Shown piece after piece: positions 20,673-24,110 of a stretch of DNA of 35,072 nucleotides. The position numbers and the translations under genes were made by a program. This DNA is from an uncultured Ruminococcus sp. (GTDB taxonomy: Bacteria; Bacillota; Clostridia; Oscillospirales; Ruminococcaceae), in the NCBI GenBank assembly GCA_947178195.1, contig CAMWXM010000002.1, forward strand, positions 1 to 35,072, given 5' to 3'. The notes under the pieces were generated by a model. The model worked only from the letters and a program-made list of their open reading frames with translations. It did no database searches and had not been told where the DNA came from. Position 1 is the first letter of the stretch. Each line of letters opens with the position of its first letter.

Positions 20673-20701
20673 CGCCGTGAAAAAATTCACGGCGCATTTT
20701 T
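20673..20701 (+). terminator. Intrinsic terminator after the SDR gene
   Basis: CGCCGTGAA (20673-20681) and TTCACGGCG (20686-20694) form a perfect nine-pair stem with an AAAA loop, followed by CATTTTT. It ends 13 bases before the convergent spoIVA stop and may also help end that transcript. Confidence 0.8.
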
Positions 20702-20713
20702 GCAATATTGCCT

Positions 20714-22189
20714 TTACAATATGAAACATATCAATCCGCTGCAGCCTTCATTTATCACTCTTTCAAGAGTTTCCTGAAGCTTTATTCTTGCGTCCATAGG
20801 CATTTTATACAGCTTATTATGAAGTCCTTCGTTTACAAGCTCATGGAGAGATTTACCGAAAATATTCGACTCCCATATTTTTTTCGGGTCCTCTTCAAAG
20901 CCTGACAACAAATATCTGATAAGCTCCTCACTTTGTTTTTCAGTACCCACAATAGGGCTTACCTTAGTATTTATAGCCGCCCTCATCATGTGGATAGACG
21001 GTGCGGAAGCTTTAAGCCTTACGCCGTATTTGCCGCCCTGCTTTATTATCTCTGGCTCTTCCAGAGAAAGCTCGTCAATGTCCGGCATAACTATTCCATA
21101 TCCGGTAGCCTCTACCTCGTCAAGAGCCGGCTTGATTTTTTCATATTCTTTCTTTATTTTATTAAGCTCCAGCAAAACCGGAAGCAGGTCGCTTTCATTT
21201 ACTATCTCAATACCCGTAGTTTCGCCTAAAATTTTATAAAACAGCGTACCCTCAAGGTTTACCTGAATCGTAACGCTACCCTGCCCCAGATCTATTTCAG
21301 CAATTTTTGAATCAGTAATATACCGGCAGTCGTTTATCCTTTCCGCAACCTCCTTTGCGTCTTTAACAAGATTAATATTTTCAGCTGCCTCCCTTACTGC
21401 ATTAAACACCTCGTCTTTAAGCCAGTGCCCTTTTTTAAGACCGGTTATCCATTTTTCCATTCTAATATTTATTTCTCTGATAGGAAAAGCAAAAAGAATT
21501 TCCGACATAATTTTTTCAATGTCCTTTTCGTCCAGCTCCAGGCAATTTACAGGAACTACCGAAGCCTCATATTTTTCGGACAATTCCGCAGCTAAATTAA
21601 TAGAATCCTCCGAATATGGATCCTGACAATTCAATACTATTATGAATGGCTTGTTGATTTCCTTTAATTCGTTTATTACACGCTTTTCACAGTCTGCATA
21701 TTCTTCCCTGGGAATATCAGAAATGCTCCCATCGGTAGTTATTACCATTCCTATAGTAGAATGCTCTGAAATAACCTTTTGCGTACCCACCTCTGCCGCC
21801 ATATTAAATGGTACTTCTTCTTCAAACCAGGGAGTGACCACCATTCTTGGCGCTTCGTTTTCAATATATCCCAGCGAGCTTGGCACTATATAACCTACGC
21901 AGTCGATAAGTCTTACGTTGAATTTTGCACCGTTTTCAAGATTTACTTCAACCGCTTCTTCGGGAATAAATTTAGGCTCTGTAGTCATAATAGTCTTTCC
22001 AGCTGCCGACTGGGGGAGCTCGTCAATAGCTCTTTCACGCTTATATTCGCTTTCAATATTGGGAATAACCAGGGATTCCATAAATTGCTTTATAAAGGTG
22101 GATTTTCCGGTTCTTACAGGTCCTACAACGCCGATATAAATATCACCGTCTGTACGTTTTGAAATATCGTTATAAATATTGCTATCCAT
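20714..22189 (-). CDS. spoIVA: Stage IV sporulation protein A, spore-coat basement ATPase
   Basis: SpoIVA polymerises with ATP hydrolysis over the forespore to form the base layer of the coat, and in Bacillus also supports cortex formation. The 491 residues match the family's usual length. Walker A GPVRTGKS is at 23-30 with Lys29, the paired threonines TT at 69-70 match the functional threonines of B. subtilis, and the Walker B aspartate is Asp96 (LIDCVGY). The C-terminus ends GCSGLICFIL, in the region needed for localisation. It starts at an ATG behind AGGAGGG that overlaps the sipL stop, nine bases downstream, so translation is probably coupled. Confidence 0.97.
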   Translation of the reverse strand: MDSNIYNDISKRTDGDIYIGVVGPVRTGKSTFIKQFMESLVIPNIESEYKRERAIDELPQSAAGKTIMTTEPKFIPEEAVEVNLENGAKFNVRLIDCVGYIVPSSLGYIENEAPRMVVTPWFEEEVPFNMAAEVGTQKVISEHSTIGMVITTDGSISDIPREEYADCEKRVINELKEINKPFIIVLNCQDPYSEDSINLAAELSEKYEASVVPVNCLELDEKDIEKIMSEILFAFPIREINIRMEKWITGLKKGHWLKDEVFNAVREAAENINLVKDAKEVAERINDCRYITDSKIAEIDLGQGSVTIQVNLEGTLFYKILGETTGIEIVNESDLLPVLLELNKIKKEYEKIKPALDEVEATGYGIVMPDIDELSLEEPEIIKQGGKYGVRLKASAPSIHMMRAAINTKVSPIVGTEKQSEELIRYLLSGFEEDPKKIWESNIFGKSLHELVNEGLHNKLYKMPMDARIKLQETLERVINEGCSGLICFIL

Positions 22190-22198
22190 TATACCCTC

Positions 22199-23737
22199 CT
22201 ACACAATTGGTATCAATAACATTCCGTTTTCCGGTAAACATTCATTTTCAAGAGAATTTTCTTCCATTATGGCATTTACTGATGTGCAGTATTTTTTTGC
22301 TATATTCCATACCTGTTCGTCTTTGACGCCGTAATAAAGCTTTAAGGCATAGTCTCCGTCACGGGTTATTTTTACCGTATCGTCAACGCTTAGGTCAGTA
22401 ACTGCTTCACAGTAGGAAGAAGTAAAAAGCTCTCCTTTAACGCAAATATCCGCCTTGATGGATATACCGTCCGAATCGGTCAGAGTATATGTACATTCCG
22501 ACGGAATAACGCAAAGTTCAGCGATACTGTTTTCCGTCACCTCGCCGCATTTTATCTCATGCTCAAAGGCCGATTCCTTTTCAATGATCGACGGGTAATT
22601 ATTTTCATTTTTCACCATTGCCTGATAGCAAAGCATACCGCTGACTCTTATGGCTTTTTCTTCACTGTCAACATTTATATTAATATTTTTTACATTACAC
22701 CATACATCATAAACGCACAGAATGCGACTTCCATCATTTTCTATCAATATCTTATTCTGGAATTTTTCGTTTATCATTATAGGAGTCTGTTCAACGGGAA
22801 GCTTTGCACAAGCAGACTCACAAGGATAAGATGTGGAATATGCGTCTGCAACAAGCCTTACGGGTATAGTTTTATACGCCAGGCATTTTATGCTTATTTT
22901 AAGCTCACATTTTAACAGCCTGTTTTCGCCGCTGCTGTCAGGAAAAACAGAAAAATCACATGTAGTCCCCTCGGTTTTCACCATACATTTAAAGCTTTCG
23001 TCCAGCCCCTCCATATCCACTATCTGGCTGTATGGCACTGAAAATGTCATGGTTTCCATATTTTCAGGACAGGTGTAAAGAATCTTTATTTCAGCCTCTC
23101 CTTTTACAACCAGCTTGTTGGCAATGATTTTTTTATCAGGCTCAGAAAGCCTTATATCATATCGTACAACATCTGATACAGGCGGCTTTGCCGTATTCAG
23201 TTCAAGGTCCTCGCTTAAAGTAATGACCTTATTCTGAATTATTTTCTTGGCCATGCATTCAACAGGCATTTTTTTCATCTGAATATTCATTCCGAAAATA
23301 TCGCTTACCGCCTCACGCTTCGACTCGCCGAAAACCTTTATTTTTATAGACACCGCACCACGAAGGTCGATCCTGCGCTTATTTACCACACGGCAGTTGA
23401 TATGGTCCGATTTGGGAACAATTGTTACTTCGGGATTATTTACACTGTCTCCCAGATTTACGGTCTTGTTAAAAACAAGCCTTTGTGGTATGCATTGCAG
23501 ATTGTTGTCATTCTCCGAGCAATAGAGTATTTTTACATCTGCAATAAGCTCATACGTTAAAGTATCTCCATTTATGCTGTAGGAATTAATTGACGGCTGA
23601 ATACTGGATTTTATCATTTTGAAAATGTCGGGATAATAATCGGGCAGAATATAATCCAGCTCTACATTCTGCTCTTGAATACCGTCATAAATTTTCTCAT
23701 TTACAGAAATCATTTCACGGTTGATCTTCAAATTCAT
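22199..23737 (-). CDS. sipL: SipL-like spore-coat morphogenetic protein (DUF3794 + LysM)
   Basis: A 512-residue protein with repeated DUF3794 (SPOCS) type beta-rich domains and a C-terminal LysM domain (about 460-512, YYGVKDEQVWNIAKKYCTSV, ending LLIPIV). In Clostridioides difficile SipL this arrangement binds SpoIVA through the LysM domain and tethers the coat to the forespore. The N-terminus has the family segment QNVELDYILPDYYPDIFKMI. No signal peptide is seen, fitting action in the mother cell. It is the first gene of a two-gene operon with spoIVA. Some DUF3794 proteins have other roles, but the LysM domain plus the neighbour make SipL the best fit. Confidence 0.88.
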   Translation of the reverse strand: MNLKINREMISVNEKIYDGIQEQNVELDYILPDYYPDIFKMIKSSIQPSINSYSINGDTLTYELIADVKILYCSENDNNLQCIPQRLVFNKTVNLGDSVNNPEVTIVPKSDHINCRVVNKRRIDLRGAVSIKIKVFGESKREAVSDIFGMNIQMKKMPVECMAKKIIQNKVITLSEDLELNTAKPPVSDVVRYDIRLSEPDKKIIANKLVVKGEAEIKILYTCPENMETMTFSVPYSQIVDMEGLDESFKCMVKTEGTTCDFSVFPDSSGENRLLKCELKISIKCLAYKTIPVRLVADAYSTSYPCESACAKLPVEQTPIMINEKFQNKILIENDGSRILCVYDVWCNVKNININVDSEEKAIRVSGMLCYQAMVKNENNYPSIIEKESAFEHEIKCGEVTENSIAELCVIPSECTYTLTDSDGISIKADICVKGELFTSSYCEAVTDLSVDDTVKITRDGDYALKLYYGVKDEQVWNIAKKYCTSVNAIMEENSLENECLPENGMLLIPIV

Positions 23738-23785
23738 TTATATACCTCCTAATTTAAATCCTGTCGGACTTGTCTTGCTAAATCA

Positions 23786-23814
23786 AGTATATTCATAAGA
23801 TTTTGCATTTATGA
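23786..23814 (-). promoter_or_regulatory. Sigma-E-like promoter of sipL-spoIVA
   Basis: On the minus strand TCATAAA (23814-23808) and AATATACT (23793-23786) are separated by 14 bases. This resembles the sigma-E consensus (kmATAtt, 13-15 bases, CATACAnT) with six of eight -10 bases. It lies about 50 bases before the sipL ATG and fits mother-cell expression of both genes. Confidence 0.55.
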
Positions 23815-23932: not shown

Positions 23933-23961
23933 TTGACATGATTGTAATTTTACAGTATAAT
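23933..23961 (+). promoter_or_regulatory. Consensus sigma-A promoter of a small RNA
   Basis: TTGACA at 23933-23938, a 17-base spacer and TATAAT at 23956-23961: an exact consensus. It points into the gap with no sizeable ORF downstream and drives the predicted antitoxin RNA, starting near 23,967-23,970. Confidence 0.85.
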
Positions 23962-23996
23962 AATAAAAAAGGAGCATACCGATAAGCGGTCGCTCC
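23962..23996 (-). terminator. Terminator of the toxin mRNA (same DNA as the 5' hairpin of the antisense RNA)
   Basis: Read on the minus strand, GGAGC-G-ACCG-CTTAT-CGGT-AT-GCTCC is a nine-pair bulged stem followed at once by TTTTTT. It ends about 45 bases past the stop of the 22-codon ORF. Read on the plus strand, the same bases make the first stem-loop of the antisense RNA, with loop ATAAG. Confidence 0.7.
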
Positions 23997-24052
23997 CAAA
24001 CTATGATTTTAATAAACCGCTAAGTTTGGTTGCTGGGCGGTTTATTTCTTTA
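23967..24052 (+). ncRNA. Predicted antisense RNA (type I antitoxin)
   Basis: A transcript of about 85 bases from the consensus promoter at 23,933-23,961. It starts with a hairpin (23,971-23,996) and ends with a terminator stem, AATAAACCGC (24,011-24,020) with GCGGTTTATT (24,037-24,046), then TTCTTTATATTC. CCAAAC (23,996-24,001) can also pair with GTTTGG (24,024-24,029), giving an alternative fold. It is fully complementary to the last few codons and the 3' tail of the small hydrophobic ORF on the other strand. This layout matches TxpA/RatA- and BsrG/SR4-type pairs. Confidence 0.6.
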
Positions 24053-24110
24053 TATTCTTAATAATCTCATTGATAACAACAAGACTCAGGAAAATAATGA
24101 TAGATTCCAT
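24042..24110 (-). CDS. Small hydrophobic peptide, predicted type I toxin (22 aa)
   Basis: The ATG at 24110 lies behind a very strong ribosome site, GGAGGTGA, and opens 22 codons. The peptide begins MESIIIFLSLVVINEI and ends with a short Lys-rich tail (KNIKK). That is one short membrane helix with a positive C-terminus, the pattern of membrane-acting type I toxins (Fst/TxpA/BsrG-like). Its 3' end is covered by a convergent short RNA with a consensus promoter. No convincing minus-strand promoter was found upstream. It is not similar enough to any family I can name to give a symbol. Confidence 0.55.
   Translation of the reverse strand: MESIIIFLSLVVINEIIKNIKK
24070..24098 (+). promoter_or_regulatory. 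Possible second plus-strand promoter inside the toxin ORF
   Basis: TTGATA at 24070-24075, 17 bases, then AATAAT at 24093-24098, each one base from consensus. A transcript from about 24,105 would be antisense to the toxin start and ribosome site and could end at the terminator at 24,233-24,266. It may be chance in AT-rich DNA. Confidence 0.3.

Follow-up and report, generated by a model that had tools for sequence, protein, structure and literature searches.

In the window studied here, i.e., the whole stretch of 35,072 nucleotides of Ruminococcus DNA that was analysed, the gene of SipL directly precedes that of the coat morphogenetic ATPase SpoIVA. The two very probably constitute a two-gene mother-cell operon, which would be transcribed from one sigma-E promoter and whose products would bind each other through the LysM domain of SipL; the transcript, the use of sigma-E, the translational coupling and the binding are all predicted features of this model. 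The linkage itself is real and, for the most part, restricted to one order, the Oscillospirales. The features of the locus are the following:

20673-20694: terminator-like inverted repeat, better on the plus strand, between spoIVA and a converging short-chain dehydrogenase gene
20714-22189, minus strand: spoIVA, encoding the coat morphogenetic ATPase (491 aa; TIGR02836, 731.8 bits, and all three Pfam SpoIVA domains)
22194-22200, minus strand: ribosome site of spoIVA, AGGAGGG, read in the sequence and overlapping the stop codon of sipL (22199-22201)
22199-23737, minus strand: sipL, encoding a protein with SPOCS/DUF3794 and a C-terminal LysM (512 aa; PF12673, 86.5 bits)
22202-22345, minus strand: LysM domain of SipL, residues 465-512 (matches in orthologues, structure model, LysM chains of the PDB, alignment)
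23745-23750, minus strand: ribosome site of sipL, AGGAGG, read in the sequence
23785-23793, minus strand: predicted sigma-E-type -10 element, AATATACTT (score of a trained motif), 14 bases from the -35 element
23808-23814, minus strand: predicted sigma-E-type -35 element, TCATAAA (score of the trained motif)

The two genes lie on the same strand and are separated by 9 bp that contain no terminator, the junction reading 5'-...GTG TAG GAGGGTATA ATG-3'. The initial annotation had pointed to this nine-base gap and to the overlap of the spoIVA ribosome site with the upstream stop codon, both of which are seen in the open reading frames and the sequence. The domain set of the full-length SpoIVA is complete (ATPase, middle and C-terminal domains, by Pfam and TIGR02836), and the short-chain dehydrogenase gene located 3' of spoIVA converges on the pair.

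The neighbourhood survey of spoIVA proposed by the same annotation found linkage in most Oscillospirales genomes and in no other order sampled. The survey covered the spoIVA genes of 61 relatives and of 196 genomes spread over the class, whose flanks were searched for an adjoining sipL. The order of the window was judged from named relatives to be Oscillospirales, its position among them being in Ruminococcus, close to R. flavefaciens. All ten genus members with spoIVA carry sipL directly upstream on the same strand, as do about 19 of 23 other members of the family and 11 of 25 genomes from other families of the order, several of these counts coming from draft or metagenome assemblies in which single unlinked cases could be misassemblies. 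Linkage occurs in none of about 136 genomes from the other orders of the class, most of which have sipL elsewhere. In a second, named sample, about 64 of 80 loci are linked, including those of R. flavefaciens XPD3002, Caproicibacter fermentans, Massiliimalia timonensis and Neobittarella massiliensis. Across 36 distinct linked loci, the gap measures between -4 and 164 bp. Since about a third of the order lacks the linkage, it is not required for the SipL-SpoIVA partnership.

Some individual loci deserve mention. In L181 (genome G047), the order is reversed: both genes are on one strand, with sipL about 1.5 kb downstream of spoIVA, before which a strong sigma-E-like site is kept. The contig L263, titled Bacteroides sp., is probably mis-binned or mislabelled metagenome DNA, since it bears a sipL-spoIVA pair typical of Oscillospirales. 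A long SpoIVA frame in genome G042 was considered as a possible SipL-SpoIVA fusion and rejected, SipL being encoded there by a separate upstream gene.

The neighbouring genes suggest where the linkage arose. The common place of spoIVA in other orders is downstream of a DUF512 gene, der, plsY and gpsA, and sipL is often found there between veg and ispE. Within Oscillospirales, the genes prkC, rsgA and thiN frequently precede sipL, both in linked loci (L124, L173, L225, L231) and in unlinked ones (L210, L215, L217). From this comparison, spoIVA would have moved to sipL, or been joined to it there, within Oscillospirales. On a tree built from both proteins, linkage requires 8 changes of state versus about 20 with shuffled labels, and both sides of the deepest split hold linked lineages. 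The prkC-rsgA-sipL-spoIVA context common to distant lineages speaks for a single origin with later separations rather than for several origins.

As for the promoter, the initial annotation had proposed a sigma-E-like -35/-10 pair with a 14-base spacer, and TCATAAA-N14-AATATACTT is indeed found at 23785-23814, 47 bp upstream of sipL. It was scored with a two-block motif trained solely on 134 regions upstream of spoIVA from unlinked genomes. The learned motif consists of [TG][CA]ATA[AT]T, 13-14 bases and [CA]ATATATAT, and we take it to be of the sigma-E type. The sipL site scores 11.5, a value reached by none of 500 control upstream regions, and is the top site of the whole 35-kb window on both strands. 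It combines an ATA-type -35 element, a spacer within 13-14 bases and a CATA/AATA-type -10 element, as expected for sigma-E, and GTCATA...GAATATA is also visible in three relatives from the genus or family (L232, L234, L177). Among linked sipL genes, 76% of the first set (about a quarter being below) and 37 of 55 in the named set exceed the 95% level of the controls. By analogy with C. difficile and B. subtilis, we infer that this promoter is used by sigma-E in the organism studied here.

Other elements were noticed around the start of sipL. A conserved hairpin in the 5' leader looked possible within the genus and was discarded, as it is not conserved across the named relatives. GGACAR/YTGTCC is over-represented in linked sipL promoters (L238-L317), where it clusters between the -35 and -10 elements (15 of 50 versus about 4% in shuffles); the sipL promoter of the window does not contain it. 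This sequence resembles the SpoIIID core, and its presence in the promoter spacers of many linked sipL genes hints at an additional control by SpoIIID. Further upstream, 23933-24110 holds a pair resembling a type I toxin-antitoxin system: a hydrophobic 22-aa ORF, MESIIIFLSLVVINEIIKNIKK, with a good ribosome site (24042-24110, minus strand), and, on the plus strand, a perfect promoter TTGACA-N17-TATAAT (23933-23961) for an RNA opposing this ORF. Its sole Rfam match is sub-threshold (RF00242, 30.9 bits).

A sigma-E promoter raises the question of sigma-E itself, since neither a sigE gene over the family cut-off nor, among the matches, a sigG-like gene was found in the assembly of this organism (446 contigs). 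The operon could on this ground be a relic of a Ruminococcus lineage that no longer sporulates, in which both genes are decaying or have taken on a different function. This appears improbable: the frames of sipL and spoIVA are intact here and in the genus relatives, the promoter elements of sipL are kept, the genome contains spoIIID and a sigma-F-like gene, and a sigE of nearly full length is found in 8 of 10 genus relatives. Given the last two observations, an assembly gap is a likelier explanation for the missing sigE than its loss.

The sigK genes of the genus show a peculiarity of their own. In two relatives, sigK is interrupted, its N- and C-terminal halves lying about 7.5-9 kb apart (L328:1691-11533 in G007; L329:1686-9967 in G006), and a gene for a large serine recombinase (568 aa) directly adjoins the C-terminal half. 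This organization is reminiscent of the skin element known from B. subtilis and C. difficile. In the genome studied here, a sigK-like C-terminal half lies at a contig end (L319:1480-1761), and sigK is apparently uninterrupted in G004 and G010. A literature search on sigK, skin element and Ruminococcus found no paper.

If sipL and spoIVA form one operon, spoIVA should no longer need a promoter of its own. A sigma-E-like site is present within 130 nt of spoIVA in 124 of 134 unlinked genomes, a count that owes part of its height to the training of the motif on this same set, versus 3 of 36 linked ones (P=6.6e-23). The difference recurs in the named sample, which lies outside the training set (15/16 unlinked versus 3/61 linked, P=3.5e-12). 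Unlinked genomes of the same order all keep the site (16/16, these also being part of the training set), and so do all unlinked genomes with a codirectional gene less than 100 nt upstream of spoIVA (15/15). In the first set, the three linked loci that do have a site show wider gaps (57, 111 and 122 bp). Linked spoIVA genes have lost their own sigma-E-like site, which fits a single transcript from the sipL promoter and strengthens the earlier proposal of one operon. With the linked spoIVA devoid of its own site, a single promoter is predicted to serve both genes.

Alternatively, the two genes could be neighbours by passive inheritance, each with its own transcript, that of spoIVA starting from a promoter within the end of sipL. 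The sigma-E-like site kept before spoIVA in three linked loci of each set goes in this direction, as does a near-perfect sigma-A-like sequence, TTGATA-N17-TATAAT, at the junction (22216-22188). However, this candidate was rejected: its TATAAT overlaps the start codon of spoIVA, so that the transcript would begin within the gene, and sigma-A-like matches of such quality are expected by chance about 12 times in the region. Furthermore, the 9-bp gap lacks a terminator, and the sigma-E-like site, near-universal before unlinked spoIVA, is absent before linked ones. Separate transcription is thus quite unlikely, and the two-gene operon is retained below.

The operon model also depends on the identity of its first gene, which the initial annotation had equated with sipL on the basis of its DUF3794 domain, the family PF12673 that now carries the name SipL. 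PF12673 matches the 512-aa protein in two or three stretches, with 86.5 bits for a cut-off of 23.6. The only two SPOCS matches of the genome both lie inside the 22199-23737 gene, and no match to SpoVID is detectable in this genome. By Pfam, the LysM domain is weak in this protein, the C-terminal piece giving E=0.0014 and 18.9 bits for a cut-off of 20.9; a LysM match is found in 42 of 51 SipL orthologues (E up to 0.01). The AlphaFold model (pLDDT 92, pTM 0.81) displays a long run of beta domains, and its C-terminus has the strand-helix-helix-strand order of LysM. LysM chains of the PDB match this domain, and a Foldseek search against the PDB gave no confident match for the SPOCS part.

In C. 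difficile, the LysM domain of SipL binds SpoIVA; I463R abolishes detectable SpoIVA pull-down and W475E lowers it, while W475F works (PMC6436350). In the alignment, these two positions correspond to L465 and W477 of the protein studied here, the W being identical and the I to L change conservative, and relatives that differ from W at the position equivalent to W477 carry F. Being the product of the sole SPOCS gene of a genome without detectable SpoVID, and keeping the LysM positions involved in SpoIVA binding, the protein is SipL, as first proposed. Although several coat proteins contain SPOCS domains (PMC10659427) and the LysM match is weak, it is very unlikely that it would be another SPOCS-LysM protein rather than a SipL orthologue, in view of these same observations and of a length and domain order that agree with those of SipL from unlinked Clostridia.

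Taken together, the operon would work as follows. One sigma-E promoter upstream of sipL would give a single mRNA for both genes, from which spoIVA would be translated using the ribosome site that overlaps the sipL stop codon. From this shared mRNA, SipL and SpoIVA would be made simultaneously, within one cell and in a constant ratio, and the LysM domain of SipL would bind SpoIVA and assist it in encasing the forespore, as happens in C. difficile. Concerning its history, spoIVA, ancestrally downstream of der-plsY-gpsA, would have been brought next to sipL (often downstream of prkC-rsgA-thiN) in Oscillospirales, and would then have lost its own sigma-E promoter. More speculatively, SipL-SpoIVA might have become in this order an obligate unit produced from one mRNA, with coupled translation fixing the ratio, an idea that we consider possible but rather doubtful. 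If true, the repeated gain or break-up of the operon, with loss or retention of the spoIVA promoter, would be a natural experiment on whether coat encasement is constrained by the dosage or the timing of the partners.

The linkage supports, on independent genomic grounds, a SipL-SpoIVA partnership beyond C. difficile, and predicts that coat encasement depends on this partnership in a large group of gut commensals. The sipL-spoIVA pair is also a clean marker and a testable operon in bacteria whose spore assembly is almost unstudied, and the loss of a promoter accompanying linkage would be a case of operon formation with regulatory simplification. While the two proteins and their partnership are already known, no report of their linkage or operon, of its near-restriction to one order or of the promoter loss was found in a literature search, subscription papers being outside its reach.

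The closest known system is the SipL-SpoIVA pair of C. difficile, with which the locus shares orthologous proteins, the LysM binding positions and a sigma-E-type promoter before sipL. As the initial annotation had stated, the two genes are apart in C. difficile (CD2629 for spoIVA and CD3567 for sipL), each with its own mapped sigma-E promoter (PMC3789822), whereas one operon with one promoter is predicted here. The SpoVID-SpoIVA pair of B. subtilis likewise includes a LysM-bearing partner of SpoIVA acting in coat encasement. Two differences are that the genome studied here has no detectable SpoVID and that, in B. subtilis, SpoIVA binding does not require the LysM (PMC6436350). Compared with the ancestral clostridial loci der-plsY-gpsA-spoIVA and veg-sipL-ispE, the same genes are involved, but spoIVA of Oscillospirales has left that context and follows sipL.
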